A stretch of 64,000 nucleotides of DNA, taken from Gammaproteobacteria bacterium. Lineage in GTDB: Bacteria; Pseudomonadota; Gammaproteobacteria; Natronospirales; REEB76. Shown here piece by piece: positions 1,911-40,356 of this stretch. The notes under the pieces were generated by a model. The model did no database searches. It was not told the origin of the DNA and saw only the letters and a list, made by a program, of their open reading frames with translations. Positions within the stretch are counted from its first letter, which is position 1. Each line of letters starts with the position of its first letter. The DNA is taken from positions 186,001 to 250,000 of the forward strand of contig DASVOS010000004.1 in NCBI GenBank assembly GCA_036383255.1, written 5' to 3'. The position numbers were made by a program, and so were the translations under genes.

Positions 1911-3782
1911 TTAGAAATTCCACATCCTGAGACCTATCAGTCCCCAGTGGCCTAAGAAAGCGGCCACGCCCAGGCAAGCGACAGCGGCAGCGAGCGCCTG
2001 CCACCTGGCCCAGCGGTTCATCTCCCAGCCGAAGGAGCGCAGCGCCTGGACGCAGGCGGCGAGGCTCAAGAGCGCAAACAGCACCGAACCTAAGTAGAAG
2101 ATCACGGTGTGGACATTGACACTGCCGAGCTGCATGGGCTGCACGCTGACCGCGCCGCCCAGCATGAAGGCGAAGGCGGTGACGGCGGCGAGAGGCAGCA
2201 GCCGCACCTCCCAGTGCCGGAGGCCGCGCATCTGTCCGCTGAGCATCCGCACCAGCCATACCGGCGCCATCACCACGCTGCTCAGCATCGCGAGCAGCGC
2301 GAGGCCGAGGAGCCACAGCGGGCCCCGGGCCGCGAGCCGGCTGGTCTTCACCATCCAGCCTCCGCTGGACCCGAAGTCCAGCACTTCGCGGCCGTCCTCG
2401 ACGTAGGACACCGCCGAGGGGCCCGGATCGCCGCCGCGCGCCCACAGGTCCAGCCCCACCGGCCCCAGCGGCTCGGTGCCGCCGATGAGCGGCGAGTAGG
2501 TCAGCTGGCCGTCCGTGTGCAGTTCCACTTCGGCGGTGTCGAGCAGCCAGTCCAGGCCCGCCAGCACCTGGTTGCGCGGGTTGCCGGCCCGGTAGAAACC
2601 TTCCAGCCGCCCGAGCTGCTGGGGGTCGGCATTGCCCACGGCCGGCAGCGGCTTGGGCTGGTCGCGCATGAGGTAGGCGGTGATGAGCTCGGAAGCCTGG
2701 CGCATGAAGCGGCCGGGGCTGGAGGTGTTCACCAGCAGCACGAAGCCCACGCCCTCGTCCGGCGCGTAGGCGTAGCGTGAGACGAACCCGTCTATGCCGC
2801 CGTCGTGGCCGTGGAACAGGTAGCCGCCGATGTAGCTGGAGTAGTCGGCGAAGCCGTAGCCGTAGTCCAGGCCGTGGCGCGCGGCGAGGCTGGTCCGGGG
2901 CGTCTCCATGCGCGTGACGCTGGCGGCGGAGAGGAACGGCGCGTTCCGCCACTGGCCCCGGTCCAGGAGCAGCACCCCCAGGTTCGCGAGTTCCGCCGGC
3001 GAGGCCGCGAGCGCGCCGGCGGGACGCAGGTAGATCTGCGCCGGTTCCACCGGTTGCTCGGGAGTGCCGATGTACCCCTGGGCGAGTCCCGCGCGCGTCG
3101 CGGCATCCAGCGCCAGGCTGGCGTGGGCGAGCCCCAGGGGCCGCAGCACATGCTCCGTGACGTAGCGCGCGTAGCGCTCGCCGGAGACCTTCTCGATGAG
3201 GTAGCCCGCCACCAGGTAGTCCGGATTCGAGTAACTCATGCGGGTGCCGGGGCGCCAGCGGACTTTCAGTTCCGGCGCGCTGCGCTCCAGCACCGTGAGC
3301 AGCGGCAGGTCCGGCGGCTCGTGGAAGTTGTAGAGGCGCGGGAAATGCATGTCGTCGAAGCCGGCGGTGTGCTCCAGCACCTCGGCCACGGTCACGGGAT
3401 CGGTCTTGTCCCAGGCGTTGGCCACCGGGACCTCCGGCGCGATGTCCTTGAGCCTCGCATCGAGGTTGATGGCGCCGTGCTCGGCGAGCTGCAGCAACGC
3501 CACGGCGGTGAAGCTCTTGGTGATGGAACCGACGCGGAACAGCGTATCCGGTGTCACGGCCTTCTTCGCGGCGAGGTCCGCATAGCCCAAGCCTGCCGTC
3601 CAGGTCACGCCTTCGCGGCCGAACAGCGCCACGCCGGCGCCGGGCACACCCGCATCCTGCATGAGCCGGGTGAGCTGGGCCTTGAGGCTCTCCAGGTCCT
3701 GCGGCGGTGCGGGCGCGTCCGCGGCGCGGACGGGAGCCAGCGGCAGCAGCGCGAGGAGGAGGATGGGCAGGAAGCGGGGCAT
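1911..3782 (-). CDS. Beta-lactamase-fold serine hydrolase with C-terminal membrane domain
   Basis: A 623-residue exported protein of the class C beta-lactamase/esterase/D-aminopeptidase family. A signal peptide (MPRFLPILLLALLPLAPVRA) is followed by the catalytic SITK (SxxK, about 86-89), YSN (YxN, about 184-186) and HGHDGG, which stands where the third KTG/HxG motif lies. The last 150 residues hold about four hydrophobic segments, so the enzyme is probably membrane-tethered with its catalytic domain in the periplasm. It acts on an unknown peptide or ester; nothing shows antibiotic hydrolysis. ATG 3782 is preferred because GGGA lies nine bases before it; 3797 is an alternative. It is the last gene of the operon that starts at 8586. 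Confidence 0.85.
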   Translation of the reverse strand: MPRFLPILLLALLPLAPVRAADAPAPPQDLESLKAQLTRLMQDAGVPGAGVALFGREGVTWTAGLGYADLAAKKAVTPDTLFRVGSITKSFTAVALLQLAEHGAINLDARLKDIAPEVPVANAWDKTDPVTVAEVLEHTAGFDDMHFPRLYNFHEPPDLPLLTVLERSAPELKVRWRPGTRMSYSNPDYLVAGYLIEKVSGERYARYVTEHVLRPLGLAHASLALDAATRAGLAQGYIGTPEQPVEPAQIYLRPAGALAASPAELANLGVLLLDRGQWRNAPFLSAASVTRMETPRTSLAARHGLDYGYGFADYSSYIGGYLFHGHDGGIDGFVSRYAYAPDEGVGFVLLVNTSSPGRFMRQASELITAYLMRDQPKPLPAVGNADPQQLGRLEGFYRAGNPRNQVLAGLDWLLDTAEVELHTDGQLTYSPLIGGTEPLGPVGLDLWARGGDPGPSAVSYVEDGREVLDFGSSGGWMVKTSRLAARGPLWLLGLALLAMLSSVVMAPVWLVRMLSGQMRGLRHWEVRLLPLAAVTAFAFMLGGAVSVQPMQLGSVNVHTVIFYLGSVLFALLSLAACVQALRSFGWEMNRWARWQALAAAVACLGVAAFLGHWGLIGLRMWNF

Positions 3783-3815
3783 GGGGCATTGTCCCATGGA
3801 CCGCGCGGGGCGCGC

Positions 3816-4604
3816 TTACTTGGCGTCGTCCTTGAACACGTCGTGGTAGTCCTTGAAGTCCCCCAGGGGGCCCACCCGCAGGTCCGCGAGGCCCGCAGTG
3901 ACCTTGAGGTCCATGTCGTCCTTGCCGCCGGCCTGCTGCGCCACGCCGTTGCCGAAGAAGTGGAACGAGCTCATGAAGCCGTGCTGCTCCGGCGGGCCGT
4001 AGTACTTGCCGTTGAGGCTCAGCACCGCGAGGCCGAAGGTGCTGCGCAGCGAGAGTGCGCCCGGCTGGGCGCTATCGGAGATCACATGCAGGCGGCCCGC
4101 ACTCACCTGCGCCTTGATCGGCCCGCCGGGGCTGCGGATGGTGATGTCGCCGGCACCGAGCCGGGCCTGTACCCCGCCCCGCACGCCGTCGATCTCCAGC
4201 CGCCCCGCTTCCATCCCGGCGTCCAAGGCGAGGCGCGCCGGCAGCATCAGCATCCAGCGCTGCTTCACGTCGCTGCGGCTCTCGCCGGAGGGATAGGCCA
4301 GCGACAGCGTAAGGATGCCGTCCTTCAGGGATTTCTGCAGCGTGGCGCCGGCGAGGTCGCGGGTGGTGGAAGCGCTCAGCCAGTGGAACAGGCCGAGGAA
4401 GCTGCGCTCGTCCTGGTGCAGGTCGAGCTGCGCGTGGATGGCGTCGTCACCCGAGACGGTGACCACCGCCTCGCCCGCCCCGGCCCGCAGCACCACATGC
4501 TGCAAGCCCGTGGCCGGCACGTCGGTGCTCAGCAAGCCGGGGGCGCCCCAGGCCGGCGCCGCGAGCGCCAGGAGCAGTAGAGCGAAAGCCGTCCGCGTAT
4601 TCAT
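3816..4604 (-). CDS. Exported DUF4097-like beta-strand repeat protein, copy 2
   Basis: A 262-residue protein with a signal peptide ending near APAWG. The body has short repeating strands (RLEIDGVRGGVQARLGAGDITI) of the kind found in DUF4097/DUF2807 proteins, which form right-handed beta-solenoids in the envelope. It is a paralogue of the gene just upstream: both have LHQ(D/K)ER, FHW, VKQ.W and LPARLAL/VPARLAL in the same order. The glycine-aspartate repeats are weaker here, and the tail (DLRVGPLGDFKDYHDVF) has no counterpart. Its ATG overlaps the stop of the upstream copy by four bases (ATGA), so translation is coupled. Function unknown. Confidence 0.75.
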   Translation of the reverse strand: MNTRTAFALLLLALAAPAWGAPGLLSTDVPATGLQHVVLRAGAGEAVVTVSGDDAIHAQLDLHQDERSFLGLFHWLSASTTRDLAGATLQKSLKDGILTLSLAYPSGESRSDVKQRWMLMLPARLALDAGMEAGRLEIDGVRGGVQARLGAGDITIRSPGGPIKAQVSAGRLHVISDSAQPGALSLRSTFGLAVLSLNGKYYGPPEQHGFMSSFHFFGNGVAQQAGGKDDMDLKVTAGLADLRVGPLGDFKDYHDVFKDDAK

Positions 4605-5467
4605 TCGTCGTCATCCTCGTCTTCGCCCTTGGACTTGGCACCGCGCGCGTGCTTCGGTTTGTCCTCGCCGGGCGCCAGGAGGTGCAGTGAGACCTCGCCC
4701 ACGTTGACCGAGAGGTGCATCTCGTCGGCACCCTCTCCGTCCAGCGTCACCCGGTTGCCGAGGCCGCCGCGGTCATGGCTGCCGGTGGACTTGCCGGAGG
4801 AGACCAGTACCGCCTCGCCGATGTTGCTGGAGAGGTCGATGCGGCCGTGGGCCTGGCTGCCCGAGGTGGCGCGGATCTCGCCCACGTTCAGCTCGGCATG
4901 GATGCGGCCCTTGGGCGTGTCGATGCTGAGTTCGCCGACGTTGAGGCCGGCGTCCACGCCGCCGGCCACGTCCTCGATGCTGAGGTCGCCCACCTTCATG
5001 ATGGTCTTCAGGGCGAGGCGCGCCGGCACCTGCACCTCCCAGTCCTGTTTCACGTCGTCCAGCTCGGCGCCGTGGGAATCCAGCGACAGCGTCACGCGCT
5101 TGTCCTGCACCTGCTGGCGCAGGGAGGCGGCGGCGATCTCGCGCGCGGTGCCCTTGCTGCGCCAATGGAAGAACCACATGAGCTCGCGCTCCTTCTGATG
5201 CAGGGTCACCTGCACATGCACCTTGTCGTCACCGGAGGCGCTGACGTGGGCCTCGCCCACGCCGATGTCGAGCGCGGCAGTGTCGAGATCCGCGGCGGGC
5301 AGCTCCAGGGAGAGGGTGCGGGGCGCGGCCAGGGCCGTGTCCGGACCGCCCGCGGGGGCGCTGCCGGCCACGACCGGGACGCGCGTGGGATGCTCGGCGG
5401 CGTACCACGCGAAGCACGCCGCCAGCACCAGGATGACGGCCACGAGCGCGGCAGTAGTCTTGTTCAT
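4601..5467 (-). CDS. Exported or membrane-anchored DUF4097-like beta-strand repeat protein, copy 1
   Basis: A 288-residue protein with an N-terminal hydrophobic segment (AALVAVILVLAACFAWYAA), either an uncleaved anchor or a lipobox (LAAC). The middle carries the periodic strands VGDLSIEDVAGG, VGELSIDTPKG, VGEIRATSGSQ, IGEAVLVSSGK and VGEVSLHLLAP, a beta-solenoid signature of the DUF4097/LiaF-like superfamily. The C terminus is highly charged (KGEDEDDDE). AGGAG precedes ATG 5467. Related proteins often sit beside envelope-stress regulators; that link is inferred here from the GntR-ABC neighbours. Confidence 0.78.
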   Translation of the reverse strand: MNKTTAALVAVILVLAACFAWYAAEHPTRVPVVAGSAPAGGPDTALAAPRTLSLELPAADLDTAALDIGVGEAHVSASGDDKVHVQVTLHQKERELMWFFHWRSKGTAREIAAASLRQQVQDKRVTLSLDSHGAELDDVKQDWEVQVPARLALKTIMKVGDLSIEDVAGGVDAGLNVGELSIDTPKGRIHAELNVGEIRATSGSQAHGRIDLSSNIGEAVLVSSGKSTGSHDRGGLGNRVTLDGEGADEMHLSVNVGEVSLHLLAPGEDKPKHARGAKSKGEDEDDDE

Positions 5468-5491: not shown

Positions 5492-5815
5492 TCAGCGTAT
5501 GACGACGACCCGGCAGCGCACGCTCTTCACCTCGGGGGTGTCGAGCGCCACCTGCACAGCGCGGGTGAGCGTCTCGGCGGAATGCACAGTGCCTTCCAGG
5601 TACACGCGGCCATGCTCGGCGGAGACCTTGAGGTCCGCCTCGCGCAGCGCCGGGTCGGCCTCGTAGCTCGCACGCACCGCGCGGGCCAGCGTGGTGTCGC
5701 TGTGTTCCGAGCTCCAGGAGGAGCCGTCGTCGATGCCGTTGCCGACGGCCAGCACGCAGCCGCCGAGGTTGGCCATCGCGGCACACAGGGTCATGGTGAC
5801 GAGGATACGGCGCAT
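5492..5815 (-). CDS. BON-domain lipoprotein
   Basis: A 107-residue protein. The first 20 residues are a lipoprotein signal with lipobox NLGGC, so the mature protein should be anchored at Cys20. One BON domain follows (LARAVRASYEADPALREADLKVSAEHGRVYLEGTV...VKSV, written here in parts), as in OsmY and DolP, which bind phospholipid surfaces. The start at 5815 has GGAG eight bases upstream; a longer in-frame opening reaches back to a GTG at 6139 but lies inside the permease gene in another frame. Gaps to both neighbours are under 30 bases, so it belongs to the operon. Confidence 0.85.
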   Translation of the reverse strand: MRRILVTMTLCAAMANLGGCVLAVGNGIDDGSSWSSEHSDTTLARAVRASYEADPALREADLKVSAEHGRVYLEGTVHSAETLTRAVQVALDTPEVKSVRCRVVVIR

Positions 5816-5844: not shown

Positions 5845-6807
5845 CTAGATCTCGGAACGCTTGCGGCGCAGCTCGATGGCGCCGTAGATGAAGGCCGCGG
5901 CCAGCGCCGCGCCTATCCACAGGCGCGGGGCGGTGAACACATGCCCGATGTTGCCCAAGCCGAAGATGGGCCCGCCGATCACATCGAATGACTTGTCGCC
6001 GTGCATCTTCAGCGCATCGAAATTGAAGGCCAGCGGCAGCCAGTCCACGGTCTGGTGGGCGATCATGCGGGCGAAGTAGCCGGTGTGGAACACCCAGGCC
6101 TCGGCCACGATGATCCCGGCCGGCACCAGCACGGTCCACAGGAACGGCGTCTTCTTGGCCCAGGACGAGGCCAGCATCACCCAGGCGAAGATCGGCAGAT
6201 ACCAGAGCGCCTGCACCAGCTCACCCCAGGCCACCAGCAGCCAGGAACTCAGGAACGCGCCGGGGTGCGCCAGCAACACGAAGGGATGGGTACCGAGCGC
6301 GGAGCCCAGGATCAGGCCCAGCACCAGCAGCACCAGCTCGAAGGCCACAGTCACGGCGAATGCGACCACGGTCACGCCGATCAAGGCGGTGGCGAGCTTC
6401 GACAGCACGGTGCGGGTGTCGGACACCGGCATGGAACGCCAGAACAGCACGCTGCGGTCGCGGCGGTCGGCGTACAGGCTGTCCAGCAGGTAGAAGAACG
6501 TCACGATCAGCATCAGGCGGCTGAACATGAAGCTCAGGCCGAAGGTGACCACGCGCACGAAGCCCGTGATCTCGGCGTCGCTGGCGTCGCGCAGGTCCGG
6601 CATGTCGGAGATCTGGAAGTGCGGGCCGTTGTCGATGTCGATGTTGTTCACGGCGCCGGAGTGGTTGACCAGTACCGCTACCAGCATGTAGACGCTCAGC
6701 ACCGTGAGGATCGCGGCGAACACCGTCGGCACCAGCCACAGCGAGCGGTTCTCCCAGAACTCGCGGCGGATAAGGGTCTTGTTGATGCGCATGTCCACGG
6801 CGTTCAT
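5845..6807 (-). CDS. ABC-2 type transporter permease
   Basis: A 320-residue integral membrane protein with about six hydrophobic segments and a large extracytoplasmic loop after the first (about residues 48-85). The layout matches the permeases that partner YtrA-linked ATPases. It starts by a four-base overlap with the ATPase gene, so the two make one transporter. The motif DSLYADRRDRSVLFWRSMPVSD is typical of this permease group. The substrate is unknown; related systems export or resist peptide antibiotics, or remodel the envelope. Confidence 0.85.
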   Translation of the reverse strand: MNAVDMRINKTLIRREFWENRSLWLVPTVFAAILTVLSVYMLVAVLVNHSGAVNNIDIDNGPHFQISDMPDLRDASDAEITGFVRVVTFGLSFMFSRLMLIVTFFYLLDSLYADRRDRSVLFWRSMPVSDTRTVLSKLATALIGVTVVAFAVTVAFELVLLVLGLILGSALGTHPFVLLAHPGAFLSSWLLVAWGELVQALWYLPIFAWVMLASSWAKKTPFLWTVLVPAGIIVAEAWVFHTGYFARMIAHQTVDWLPLAFNFDALKMHGDKSFDVIGGPIFGLGNIGHVFTAPRLWIGAALAAAFIYGAIELRRKRSEI

Positions 6808-7661
6808 TTCATCTCTCCTTTCACCTTCGCCACGAAGATGTCGGCGACGCTCGGGGTGTGCAGCTCGCCCAGCCTGGCCAGCTCCTCGCGCGAGGCACCC
6901 TCGAACAGGAACAGCTTCTTGCCGAACACTTCGCGCTCGTAGAGCGGCTTGAGCGCCTGGGCGGCGGCGGCCTTGTCGTGAGCCACCAGCACCTCGGTGT
7001 ACCGCTCGGCCACCTCCTCCATGGAGCTGTTGAGCGTCACCCGCCCGCCGTCGATGAACATGAGGTGGGTGAGGATCTTCTCGATCTCCTCCACTTGGTG
7101 GGTGGTGACCAGGATGGTGCGCTGCGCGTCGAAGTAGTCGTTGAGCAGGCTGGTGTAGAACTCCTTGCGGTACAGGATGTCGAGGCCGAGGGTCGGCTCG
7201 TCCAGCACCAGGAGCTTCGCGTCGATCGCCATGATCAGCGCCAGGTGCAGCTGGGTCACCATGCCCTTGGAGAGCTCGCCCACCTTGCTGCGCTGCTTGA
7301 TCTTGGTGCGCTCCAGGAAGTGCATGGCGCGCTCGCGGCTGAAGCCGGGGTGCACCGCCTCCACGTACTCGATGGCGTTGGACACCCGCAGCCAGCGCGG
7401 CAGCACCGCCACGTCGGCGATGAAGCAGACCTGGCGCATCAGCTCGTGGCGGTCGCCGCGCGGGTCATGGCCCAGCACGTCGAGTTCGCCCTCGAAGTCG
7501 GTGAGGCCGAGGATGGCCTTGAGCGCGGTGGTCTTGCCGGCGCCGTTCGGGCCGATCAGGCCGACGATGCGGCCCTCCTCGATCTCGAAGTCCACGTGGT
7601 CCAGCGCCGCCAGCGCGCCGTATCGCTTGGTCAGGCCCTTGGCCTTGACGAGCATGCTCAT
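6804..7661 (-). CDS. ABC transporter ATP-binding protein
   Basis: A 285-residue ATPase. Walker A is GPNGAGKTT at 37-45, the signature is LSKGM at 130-134 (a degenerate LSGGQ, common in this subgroup), Walker B is LLVLDE at 150-155, and the switch histidine lies in TTHQVEE. The C-terminal 80 residues form the extra domain seen in YtrB/antibiotic-resistance ATPases. The ATG overlaps the gntR stop by four bases, and the stop overlaps the permease start by four. Regulator, ATPase and permease are thus a translationally coupled unit. Confidence 0.93.
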   Translation of the reverse strand: MSMLVKAKGLTKRYGALAALDHVDFEIEEGRIVGLIGPNGAGKTTALKAILGLTDFEGELDVLGHDPRGDRHELMRQVCFIADVAVLPRWLRVSNAIEYVEAVHPGFSRERAMHFLERTKIKQRSKVGELSKGMVTQLHLALIMAIDAKLLVLDEPTLGLDILYRKEFYTSLLNDYFDAQRTILVTTHQVEEIEKILTHLMFIDGGRVTLNSSMEEVAERYTEVLVAHDKAAAAQALKPLYEREVFGKKLFLFEGASREELARLGELHTPSVADIFVAKVKGEMK

Positions 7662-8026
7662 GACTTGCTCCCTTTATCCGCGTCCTTGGCGAGATCCATC
7701 AGGTCCAGGCCGAGGCGCTGTATGCGTTGCAGGATCTGCGGCCATTCGGCCTTGAGGAACTGTTCGCGCTCGTTCTTCATGAGGTTCTTGCGCGCGCCTT
7801 CCTTCACGAACATGCCCAGGCCGCGGCGCTTCTCGACCAGGCCCTCGTCCACCAGTGACTGGTAGCCCTTGAGCACCGTCAGCGGGTTGATCTGGTACTC
7901 GGCGGCCACCGAGCGCACCGATGGCAGGGGGTCGCCCTCCTTCAGCGCGTCCTCGAGGATCATGGCGACCACCCGATCCCGCAGCTGGCGGTAGATCGGC
8001 TGGTTGTCGCTCCAGTTGGGTTCCAT
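7658..8026 (-). CDS. GntR-family transcriptional regulator, YtrA type
   Basis: A 122-residue protein. Residues 10-80 are a GntR winged helix (PIYRQLRDRVVAMILE, LPSVRSVAAEYQINPLTVLKGYQSLVDEG, and the wing KRRGLGMFV). The short C-terminal tail, with no ligand domain, defines the YtrA subfamily. YtrA proteins usually repress their own operon with an ABC transporter. GAGG lies eight bases before ATG 8026; ATG 8032 and TTG 8053 are in frame. It sits second in the operon, 50 bases after the repeat-protein gene, and is the likely reader of the GTGTTATAG sites at 8634 and 39088. Confidence 0.9.
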   Translation of the reverse strand: MEPNWSDNQPIYRQLRDRVVAMILEDALKEGDPLPSVRSVAAEYQINPLTVLKGYQSLVDEGLVEKRRGLGMFVKEGARKNLMKNEREQFLKAEWPQILQRIQRLGLDLMDLAKDADKGSKS

Positions 8027-8076
8027 GTCCATGGCCTCGCTGCTATAGCGCAATAGTTGAGTAGCTTGCCGCTACC

Positions 8077-8586
8077 TTAGCCGCCCATCCGGGCAAAGAC
8101 CAGCGCGCTGATCAGTGCCATCACGCCGCCGAGCACCGGGGCCTTGGCATCGCGCGCGGTCACCGTCACGGCGCCGAGGTACAGAGTGCCCGGCTCGTCG
8201 GCCAGGTTGGCCGCCACGCGGGCGTCCTCGGAATCGGCGTTGGTCACGGTCACGGCGCCGATGTAGAAGGCCCCCTGCTTCGCCGCGGTGGCCGCGGTGG
8301 CGCGGGAGACGGCGGAGTCGTCGGCAGTGACCTCGACCCGGCCGAGGTAGGCAGTCGAGCCGTAGTTGCGCTTCGGCTGGCGGGCGCCTTCGGCATCCGC
8401 CGCGGTCACCTTGATGGTGCCGAGGTGGATCACGTTGCGGGCCTGGCCATGGCTCGGGGCGCCGGTCGTCAGGGTGGTCTGTGCCTTGGCCGCGGGAGCG
8501 GCGCTGGCGGCATCGGCTGCCAGGCTCGCACCCATCAGGCAAAGGCCCAGGGCAACAGCGGCGCTCAATTTGGTGGTGGTGTTCAT
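8077..8586 (-). CDS. Exported protein with four 28-residue YLGxVxVTAxD repeats
   Basis: A 169-residue protein with a signal peptide (about 1-23) and an Ala-rich linker. It has four copies of a 12-residue core at about 53-64, 79-90, 107-118 and 135-146: IHLGTIKVTAAD, AYLGRVEVTADD, FYIGAVTVTNAD and LYLGAVTVTARD. Spacings are 26, 28 and 28 residues. A hydrophobic C-terminal segment (VLGGVMALISALVFARM) could anchor it. I know no family for it. GAGGAGAG precedes the ATG. It is the first gene after the operator promoter, so it should be the most strongly transcribed gene of the operon. It may be a substrate or effector of the transporter, which is speculation. Confidence 0.75.
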   Translation of the reverse strand: MNTTTKLSAAVALGLCLMGASLAADAASAAPAAKAQTTLTTGAPSHGQARNVIHLGTIKVTAADAEGARQPKRNYGSTAYLGRVEVTADDSAVSRATAATAAKQGAFYIGAVTVTNADSEDARVAANLADEPGTLYLGAVTVTARDAKAPVLGGVMALISALVFARMGG

Positions 8587-8633: not shown

Positions 8634-8673
8634 GTGTTGTAGCTAACTATAACACTAAAAAAAGAGATTGCAA
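8634..8673 (-). promoter_or_regulatory. Promoter with GntR-type operator for the 8586-1911 operon
   Basis: Read on the minus strand, -35 is TTGCAA (8673-8668), the spacer is 16 bases, and -10 is TATAGT (8651-8646). A 22-bp imperfect palindrome at 8655-8634 covers the -10; nine of its eleven base pairs are symmetric, and the half-sites are GTGTTATAG and its mirror with one change. This is the layout of a repressor site. A GGAGA-5-TCTCC inverted repeat lies just upstream (8681-8695). The gap 8587-8949 also holds AT-rich DNA (8700-8745) and the half-site cluster at 8765-8817. Confidence 0.7.
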
Positions 8674-8764
8674 GGGGGTTGGAGAGAAATTCTCCACATC
8701 CATGTATTAGTCATATAAAACAATGGCTTACGTATATAAAAATCAGCGGAAACCGGGGCTCCAG

Positions 8765-8817
8765 GGTGTTATCGGTCCCCCTTCCCGCAGTCCATCTATA
8801 ACACCGCCTATAACACC
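8765..8817. promoter_or_regulatory. Cluster of extra GTGTTATAG half-sites
   Basis: CTATAACAC occurs at 8796-8804 and again at 8808-8816, and GGTGTTAT occurs in the opposite direction at 8765-8772. These match the half-site of the operator at 8634-8655. They lie between that operator and mdh. They could be auxiliary sites of the GntR repressor or control mdh. I found no convincing -35/-10 pair for mdh beside them. Confidence 0.5.
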
Positions 8818-8949
8818 CCTGTGACACCTCACCCGCCGGCACTGCCCAAGGCCTGCAGGAAGCGGGTGCTAAAATCGCGTCCCCTTAAGAGGCCGTCCCC
8901 AGGGGACCGGCCGCCCAGGACCCCACCAGAACTTACGGAGCTCCCTCGA

Positions 8950-9939
8950 ATGGCTATGAAGAAACCCGTCCGCGTCGCCGTCACCGGCGCCGCCGGCCAG
9001 ATCGGCTACCAGCTCATCTTCCGCATCGCCGCCGGCGACATGCTGGGCCCGAAGCAGCCCGTGATCCTGCAGCTCCTGGAAGTGACCCCGGCCTTGCCGG
9101 GCCTCAATGGCGTGGTGATGGAACTCAACGATGGCGCCTACCCGCTGCTGGCGGGCGTGGTGGCCACGGACAGCGCGGAAGTGGCGTTCAAGGACGCGGA
9201 CTACGCCCTCCTGGTGGGCGCCCGCCCGCGCGGTCCCGGCATGGAGCGCAAGGATCTCTTGCTCGAGAACGCGAAGATCTTCTCGGCCCAGGGCAAGGCG
9301 CTCAACGCCGCCGCCAAGAAGAACGTGAAGGTGCTGGTGGTGGGCAACCCGGCCAACACCAACGCGCTCATCGCCGCCTCCAACGCGCCGCGCATCCCGG
9401 CCAAGAACTTCAGCGCCATGATGCGCCTCGACCACAACCGTGCCATGTCGCAGCTCGCCGCCAAGACCGGCAAGCACGTCACCGACATCAAGCGCATGAC
9501 CATCTGGGGCAACCACTCCTCCACCCAGTATCCGGACATCCGCGCCGCCACGGTGAAAGGCAAGCCCGCAGCCAAGCTGGTGGACCAGGCCTGGATCGCC
9601 AACGACTTCATCCCCACGGTGCAGCAGCGCGGCGCGGCCATCATCAAGGCCCGCGGCGCCTCCTCGGCGGCGTCCGCCGCGTCCGCCGCCATTGACCACA
9701 TGCGCGACTGGGCTCTCGGCACGGCGAAGGGCGACTGGGTCAGCATGGCCGTGCCTTCCGACGGCAGCTACGGCATCAAGAAGGGCATCATCTACGGCTA
9801 CCCGGTCACCTGCAGCAAGGGACAGTGGAAGATCGTGAAGAACCTCAAGATCGACGACTTCTCCAAGCAGCGCATGCAGGCCACCGAGGCCGAGCTGCGG
9901 GAGGAGCGCGAGGGCGTTAAGGACCTCCTGCCGGCCTGA
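8950..9939 (+). CDS. mdh: Malate dehydrogenase (NAD)
   Basis: A 329-residue lactate/malate dehydrogenase family enzyme that interconverts malate and oxaloacetate in the TCA cycle. The Rossmann motif is [12 protein letters not shown]; the substrate arginines lie in [13 protein letters not shown] and MMRLDHNRA; the catalytic histidine is in [11 protein letters not shown]. The length and the [10 protein letters not shown] start fit the 327-330-residue proteobacterial type. ATG 8950 has GGAG nine bases upstream; a longer in-frame opening from 8821 lacks a ribosome site and homology. A strong hairpin follows the stop. Confidence 0.96.
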
Positions 9940-39064: not shown

Positions 39065-39115
39065 CAGGCTTGAAATGTCCCAAGCCTGTGTTATAGTAAG
39101 ATAATACAGTAACAC
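39065..39115 (+). promoter_or_regulatory. Promoter and GntR-type operator of the DUF4097 gene
   Basis: -35 is TTGAAA (39070-39075), the spacer is 16 bases, and -10 is TATAGT (39092-39097). GTGTTATAGTAAG begins at 39088 and matches 12 of 13 bases with the operator at 8655-8643 (minus strand). The inverted end TAACAC lies at 39110-39115. A second inverted repeat, CAGGCTTG (39065-39072) with CAAGCCTG (39081-39088), overlaps the -35 box. Confidence 0.68.
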
Positions 39116-39150: not shown

Positions 39151-40356
39151 ATGCGCATCCCCGCCCTCCTCTGCGCCGCCGTCCTGGCGGCCGCCGCCGC
39201 CGGCCCGGTGGCCGCGGCCCAATCCTTCGAGAAGACCGACACCTACAAGAACCCGGCCATCAAGGCCGGCGGCAGCCTGAGCCTGAGCAACCTGGTCGGC
39301 CACGTCAGCGTCGTGACTGCCGCCGACGGCGTGCTCTCCGTGGACAGCAAGGTGGTCGCGGCCTCCGGCAGCGACGCCGAAGCCCAGGCCCTGGCGGCCA
39401 AGCTCAAGATCGTGCCCCAGGTGGACGGCAACAGCGTGACGCTGCACGCCGAGTACCCGCTGGACGACTACACCGAGTACTACTACCACGGCAACGGCAG
39501 CAACTTCGGCATGAGCACCAGCACCGTGAGCTACGACGGCGAGCGCGTGCGGATCAGCAACGGCACCTTCGGTTCCGGCGCGAACCTGCATGCAGACTTC
39601 GTGGTGCACGTGCCCAAGGGCGTCCACGTGACCGTGGACAACAAGGTGGGCCTGATCGAGGCCAGCGGCGTGAATGCGCCGCTCACCCTGAAGTCCGCAT
39701 CCGGAGACATCAAGGCCGAGAAGGGCAGCGACAGCCTGAGCGGCGACACCGGCTCCGGCGACATCACCGTGACCGACCACAACGGCGCGGTGAAGATGGA
39801 CACCGGTTCCGGCGACATCATCCTCACCCACCAGAAGGGCGGAGACGTGGACGCCGACACGGGCTCGGGCGACGTGAACCTGACCGACGTGGCCGGCACG
39901 CTGACCGCCGACACGGGCTCGGGCGACGTGAACCTGCAGAAATACAGCGGCAACGGCGCCAAGCTCGATACCGGCTCCGGCAGCATCGTGATCCATGACG
40001 CCACCGGCTCCATGAAGCTGGAGGCGGGCTCGGGCGACATCACCGCCACCGGCTTCAAGGCCGGTCAAGTCCTCGAGATCAGCACCGGCAGCGGCAGTGT
40101 GAGCATCGAGGGCGACCTGGGCGACGTGCTGCGCCTCTCCGCCGACGCGGGCAGCGGCGACATCACGATCCGCACCAGCCGCGTGCCCTCGCTGCACATC
40201 ACCGCCACTTCCGACTCGGGCGACGTGGACGTGGACCTGCCCGGCATGCAGAACGTGTCCGCCAAGCATCACTCCATCCGCGCCGACGTGAACGGCGCCA
40301 AGGGCACCGCCGAGCTGGACGCGAGCTCCGGCGACGTGAGCTTCACGAAGAGCTGA
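39151..40356 (+). CDS. Exported DUF4097 beta-solenoid repeat protein
   Basis: A 401-residue exported protein with signal peptide ending near VAAAQ. From about 180 to the end are some ten repeats of 18-20 residues around (D)TGSGD[IV]: SASGDIKA, TGSGDITV, TGSGDIIL, TGSGDVNL twice, TGSGSIVI, AGSGDITA, TGSGSVSI, AGSGDITI, DSGDVDV, SSGDVSF. This is the DUF4097 fold, a right-handed beta-helix. AGGAG precedes the ATG. It shares family and predicted operator with the operon at 8586-1911. A T-run terminator follows at 40385. Confidence 0.9.
   Translation: MRIPALLCAAVLAAAAAGPVAAAQSFEKTDTYKNPAIKAGGSLSLSNLVGHVSVVTAADGVLSVDSKVVAASGSDAEAQALAAKLKIVPQVDGNSVTLHAEYPLDDYTEYYYHGNGSNFGMSTSTVSYDGERVRISNGTFGSGANLHADFVVHVPKGVHVTVDNKVGLIEASGVNAPLTLKSASGDIKAEKGSDSLSGDTGSGDITVTDHNGAVKMDTGSGDIILTHQKGGDVDADTGSGDVNLTDVAGTLTADTGSGDVNLQKYSGNGAKLDTGSGSIVIHDATGSMKLEAGSGDITATGFKAGQVLEISTGSGSVSIEGDLGDVLRLSADAGSGDITIRTSRVPSLHITATSDSGDVDVDLPGMQNVSAKHHSIRADVNGAKGTAELDASSGDVSFTKS

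Follow-up and report, generated by a model that had tools for sequence, protein, structure and literature searches.

A putative YtrA (GntR) promoter-operator before a DUF4097/Toastrack gene and a predicted regulon of envelope and efflux loci in a gammaproteobacterium

YtrA regulons are said to consist mostly of single ABC operons (PMC4494728). In Bacillus subtilis, YtrA represses such an operon (ytrGABCDEF), which is induced by lipid II cycle inhibitors (PMC12772383), and it has a second target promoter (ytrA and ywoB sites; PMC4730234); in Sulfolobus acidocaldarius, YtrASa acts on its own operon and on one distant membrane-protein locus (PMC6746942). HpaR1, a YtrA-type regulator of Xanthomonas campestris, can activate (PMC4730234), and for Xanthomonas citri YtrA the motif GGTG-N16-CACC is given (Zhou, Yan and Wang 2017, as quoted in PMC6746942). 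Toastrack proteins have been tied to envelope stress systems, and a 2024 study pointed to GntR-ABC-Toastrack operons that accompany PSP-like systems of this kind (PMC11237479). Such operons, like the GGTG-N16-CACC motif and YtrA regulons with two targets, have been described before.

The operons of PMC11237479 have the same gene set as the one described here, specifically a GntR regulator with an alpha-helical C-terminus, an ABC ATPase, a permease, a membrane-anchored Toastrack protein and a DUF2884 lipoprotein; there, however, the association is at the level of the operon, whereas here an operator is defined, and a Toastrack gene also stands apart from the operon behind an operator of the same type, as do tolC, RND and macA-type loci. 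The X. citri regulator likewise belongs to GntR/YtrA, and its quoted motif has the same spacing and ends as the dyad found here. The B. subtilis and Sulfolobus systems are similar in that YtrA reaches a second locus, but the former is Gram-positive, has inverted repeats 13 bp apart and is not known to have TolC or RND targets (PMC4730234, PMC12772383), and the latter is archaeal, its 14-bp core motif overlaps the transcription start, and ChIP-seq gave two targets (PMC6746942). A literature search returned no paper linking YtrA with the control of TolC, RND or MacAB; the X. citri regulon study was outside this comparison, and the priority of such a link is thus uncertain.

The window, the whole stretch of DNA that was analysed, spans 64 kb (68% G+C) of a 2.585-Mb genome and contains the following ytr features:

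8646 to 8673, minus strand: ytr promoter, with -35 TTGCAA at 8673-8668, a 16-bp spacer, and -10 TATAGT at 8651-8646 within the left half-site
8634 to 8655, minus strand: ytr operator, a 22-bp dyad, GTGTTATAGTTAGCTACAACAC
8077 to 8586, minus strand: first ytr gene; its secreted product of 169 aa carries short repeats (xYLGxVTVTA) and is not a DUF4097 protein
7658 to 8053, minus strand: YtrA-type GntR regulator ORF, start likely near 8026-8032, with a short C-terminal domain
6804 to 7661, minus strand: ABC transporter ATPase, YtrB-like
5845 to 6807, minus strand: ABC-2 type permease, YtrC-like
5492 to 5815, minus strand: BON-domain lipoprotein, whose counterpart in two relatives directly precedes the DUF4097 ortholog
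4601 to 5467, minus strand: membrane-anchored all-beta protein, a probable remote DUF4097/Toastrack relative
3816 to 4604, minus strand: paralog of the 4601-5467 product, 40% identical
1911 to 3797, minus strand: beta-lactamase/serine-hydrolase family membrane protein, ∼18 nt behind the ytr operon and possibly co-transcribed with it
8765 to 8828, no strand assigned: extra half-site cluster between the ytr operator and mdh, with GGTGTTAT at 8765-8772, CTATAACACC at 8796-8805 and 8808-8817, and CTGTGACACC at 8819-8828

Judged by its sequence and gene neighborhood, the 131-aa regulator is a member of the YtrA subfamily. It contains a GntR winged-helix domain (PF00392, E 1.1e-12, residues 21-83) followed by ∼48 aa, compared with a two-helix tail of ∼50 aa and a total of ∼120-130 aa for the subfamily, and it matches the solved short GntR protein 3tqn over nearly its full length (E 1.2e-39). 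The ABC ATPase and ABC-2 permease genes lie directly 3′ of ytrA, an arrangement conserved in relatives. The palindrome typical of the subfamily (GT/AC far from the center, of the GGTG-N16-CACC type) was found at 74 of 80 ytrA loci; the site at 39088, described below, has only its left half intact. Two genes with a GntR domain are present in the genome, and 7658-8053 is the single YtrA-type one; the other, a 499-aa ORF, looks like an aminotransferase-fused regulator of the MocR type by length and tail. Elsewhere, a Lysobacterales MAG (G138) carries two ytrA-type genes (L275 and L276), and a separate dyad precedes each of them.

The envelope proteins of the two loci had been assigned to the same solenoid family in the original prediction, which fits the ytr operon through its distal genes alone, and there only as a probable remote relationship. 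Neither distal product (4601-5467, 3816-4604) has a Pfam match; these genes probably encode remote Toastrack proteins, as judged by an hhalign comparison with the DUF4097 alignment (probability 85, E 6e-6) and by a low-confidence model (pLDDT 55) that finds its best PDB match in Toastrack structure 4qrk (E 1.4e-5). The first ytr product (8077-8586) has no Pfam match at gathering level, DUF4097 included, and no similarity to P0003; relatives have a weakly similar ORF at this position. Upstream, the malate dehydrogenase gene mdh is divergent from the ytr operon (window 8634-8951), as it is in several distant genomes (L243, L244, L295, L296), so the pairing is conserved. The two CTATAACACC copies of the extra half-site cluster are 12 bp apart, and this cluster was not found at the corresponding place in relatives, being present in this genome only.

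When the best 22-bp window upstream of ytrA was taken from 80 related loci, the full operator emerged as a dyad, GTGTTATAG-N4-CTATAACAC, matched at no fewer than 15 of 18 arm bases before ytrA at 74 loci; four of the other six have ≤350 bp of upstream DNA, and two (L049 and L058) match at 14 of 18. With the flanking G and C present at many sites, the dyad reads GGTG-N16-CACC. As a rule, the ytr promoters of relatives read TTG-16-TATA and have their -10 box within the left arm; ytr, DUF4097, macA and RND promoters all follow this geometry and place the -10 at position 5 of the dyad. Two profiles were built: R1, whose training set was limited to ytr promoters from other genomes, and R2, a dyad profile trained on ytr, DUF4097, tolC and macA sites of relatives with this genome excluded. 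Because of this training, R2 matches at tolC, macA and DUF4097 genes are not independent, whereas R1 matches are. Both were run on 12 family genomes; most genomes are MAGs, and since pattern and profile scans scored at most 150 first-pass candidates per genome, weak sites may escape. Under stricter filters, and irrespective of the presence of ytrA, an R2 site at E ≤0.005 occurred in only 5 of 115 genomes of the class; the background is thus low and the profile specific.

Some 30 kb from the ytr promoter, the window holds a second promoter of nearly identical design:

39070 to 39109, plus strand: DUF4097 promoter-operator, conserved in all 10 family genomes with upstream DNA covered
39070 to 39075 and 39092 to 39097, plus strand: its -35 (TTGAAA) and -10 (TATAGT) boxes, read directly, with a 16-bp spacer
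39088 to 39096, plus strand: left half-site, GTGTTATAG
39101 to 39109, plus strand: eroded right half-site, ATAATACAG, with TAACAC repeated at 39110-39115
39151 to 40356, plus strand: gene for a DUF4097 (Toastrack, PF13349) secreted or envelope protein of 401 aa

The shared pattern that had been predicted, TTG(A/C)AA-16-TATAGT with an operator over the -10 at 39070-39100 and 8673-8643, was recovered with the same coordinates, spacing and strings. By direct reading, GTGTTATAGTAAG covers the DUF4097 -10 at 39088-39100 and GTGTTATAGTTAG lies at 8655-8643 on the minus strand of the ytr promoter; the predicted agreement of 12 of 13 operator bases holds, as does the position of the -10 box inside the half-site at both promoters. 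The only two TTG-N19-TATAGT strings of the window are these promoters, and the same is true of extended -10 strings (TGnTATA[AG]T). With up to 2 mismatches, GTGTTATAGTWAG has 3 matches in the window against 0.11 expected from shuffles, and its 2 exact copies in the genome are both at the ytr and DUF4097 promoters. The exact half-site GTGTTATAG occurs 7 times genome-wide (∼3.4 expected from base composition), and the ytr and DUF4097 promoter regions account for 4 of these; two other half-site matches (G000:C13:250814 and C18:175578) are inside coding sequence and look like chance. The widespread occurrence at unrelated promoters that had been named as counting against common control was not observed in the genome scan: copies of the motif are few, and the promoters that carry them belong to related (envelope/efflux) genes.

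The product of 39151-40356 is a clear DUF4097 protein (PF13349, 86 bits against a cut-off of 22.9), and the gene is apparently a single-gene unit; a terminator-like GGCCGGC hairpin and T-run, read by eye, are just 3′ of it. The same promoter-operator precedes its ortholog in each of the 10 family genomes with upstream DNA covered, usually with the right arm kept. With a matrix from ytr sites of other genomes only, 8 of 9 relatives' sites scored E 0.0002-0.006 per genome (the ninth, in G010, E 0.24), and R1 recovers the DUF4097 promoters in most family genomes. In Thioalkalivibrio sp. XN8 (L120) and at L079, the DUF4097 ortholog (31-36% identity) lies within the ytr operon itself, directly behind the BON gene. 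Operator conservation, this placement inside the operon in two relatives and the single YtrA-type GntR make predicted shared YtrA control of both loci well supported. The site at 39088 is nevertheless lopsided, with ATAATACAG as its right arm versus the consensus CTATAACAC, and the full dyad scores 3.1 bits with the ytr-only matrix, a score reached by chance ∼1.5 times per genome; it is the second-best site of the window, behind the ytr operator. Scored directly with R2 it reaches 10.6 bits, and it is absent from the R2 scan matches of this genome, where it seems to be among the weakest predicted YtrA sites. With its right arm eroded and its left half-site reading as an extended -10 as well, the element could be either a weak operator or a promoter only.

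Across the 12 family genomes, R1 and R2 sites are few per genome and lie almost all before genes of the ytr (12 of 12 genomes), tolC (11 of 12, this genome included), macA-type (10 of 12) or DUF4097 classes, the macA-type class being an adaptor with MacB-like ABC genes; R1, although trained on ytr promoters, also recovers the tolC and macA promoters. In this genome, the dyad before tolC (G000:C18:259531) reaches 35.2 bits (E 7e-6), and a further site of 18.5 bits (E 0.009) at G000:C17:73678-73697 (L192) precedes an operon of RND adaptor, DUF2884 and RND pump genes. At the latter the dyad takes a symmetric CTG...CAG form (CTGTTATA...TATAACAG), and the promoter reads TTGCAT-16-TATACT. The RND site also occurs elsewhere in the order, in families other than this one (G012, G013), and, like the tolC site, in distant ytrA-bearing members of the class. 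Among 16 genomes known to carry ytrA, the dyad lies before an RND adaptor in about 11 and before tolC in 8. Most sites beyond ytr and DUF4097 keep the same -35/-10 geometry. The macA ortholog of this genome (G000:C13:231131, L206) has no operator, unlike those of relatives, and starts ∼12 nt behind the upstream gene; macA is thus claimed for relatives only. Upstream of a TPR-protein gene (G000:C10:43495, L195) there is an operator-like left half-site only (3.2 bits); this gene is a possible member of the YtrA set. Its homolog in G004 (L297) is itself part of the ytr operon, and the TPR gene may thus be a second example of departure from that operon. In G014, a dyad-like site (L242) precedes a gene that resembles DUF2884 lipoproteins by eye. 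Together, these predicted sites suggest that the YtrA set comprises at least four envelope/drug-efflux loci in this genome, not two.

The reading we prefer, at a probability of roughly 0.7, is that 39070-39109 is a promoter-operator of a repression-type YtrA (GntR) regulon that includes ytr, DUF4097, tolC and RND loci. It could instead be that in this genome 39070-39100 has lost its operator function and now acts only as a strong sigma-70 promoter of the extended -10 type (TTGAAA-16-TGTTATAGT), its likeness to the ytr promoter being due to ancestry or convergence. This would account for the extended -10 spelled by TGTTATAGT, for the erosion of the right half-site to ATAATACAG and for a dyad score at chance level genome-wide; it fits less well with the fact that the window's sole two extended -10 strings are exactly the ytr and DUF4097 promoters, and with the retention of the site, mostly with a good right arm, in all relatives with upstream DNA covered. 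Right arms ending in CAG, moreover, are also found at two ytr operators (L045 and L113) and symmetrically at the RND site of this genome, and we consider loss of the operator unlikely.

The original prediction of one GntR repressor for a two-locus regulon survives in its first part, with one YtrA for both loci indicated by site conservation, by the single YtrA and by DUF4097 genes inside the ytr operon of relatives, but not in its second. A regulon strictly limited to the ytr and DUF4097 loci would match the restriction of the exact 13-mer to these two places and the two-target YtrA regulons of Sulfolobus (PMC6746942) and B. subtilis (ytrA and ywoB; PMC4730234); however, a far better dyad stands before tolC (35.2 bits, E 7e-6), the symmetric variant stands before the RND adaptor (18.5 bits, E 0.009), the tolC and RND classes carry the site in other families too, and relatives add their macA sites, so that this limit is highly improbable. 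Hardly any more credible is that a regulator other than the operon's own YtrA reads the shared dyad at some loci: the dyad is assigned to YtrA by conservation only, but it is present at ytrA's own promoter across the clade and fits the published YtrA motif GGTG-N16-CACC, and the sole other GntR in the genome is MocR-like.

Under the preferred reading of a multi-locus YtrA regulon, a YtrA dimer would bind the 22-bp dyad (GGTG-N16-CACC), whose left half contains the -10 box and the TG of the extended -10, and YtrA on its site should keep RNA polymerase out. At most of these promoters the left arm encloses the -10 hexamer, so such exclusion would most likely amount to repression of the targets and autorepression of ytrA. 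Release of YtrA on an inducing signal would then jointly switch on the ytr ABC operon, repressor gene included, along with the DUF4097 gene, TolC and the RND pump, joined in relatives by the MacA-type ABC pump. With much of its right half lost, the DUF4097 operator of this genome would be expected to be weak and its repression partly relieved.

A gene set that combines an ABC-2 exporter, a Toastrack protein, TolC and the pumps that depend on it is in keeping with a response to envelope or antimicrobial stress. In its broadest form, which we regard as an even bet, YtrA would be the master switch of a conserved gammaproteobacterial envelope-defense regulon, acting without a two-component system through one promoter-overlapping dyad on DUF4097 Toastrack genes, the ABC-2 exporter, TolC and RND/MacA-type pumps, with genes that have moved out of the ytr operon and have either retained its operator or acquired it. 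If true, the read-out of such a regulon would be simple, with one regulator, one dyad and few promoters; a conserved multi-locus YtrA regulon would tie Toastrack proteins to TolC and its pumps, and the DUF4097/Toastrack proteins of unknown function would gain a testable physiological setting in envelope stress and efflux.
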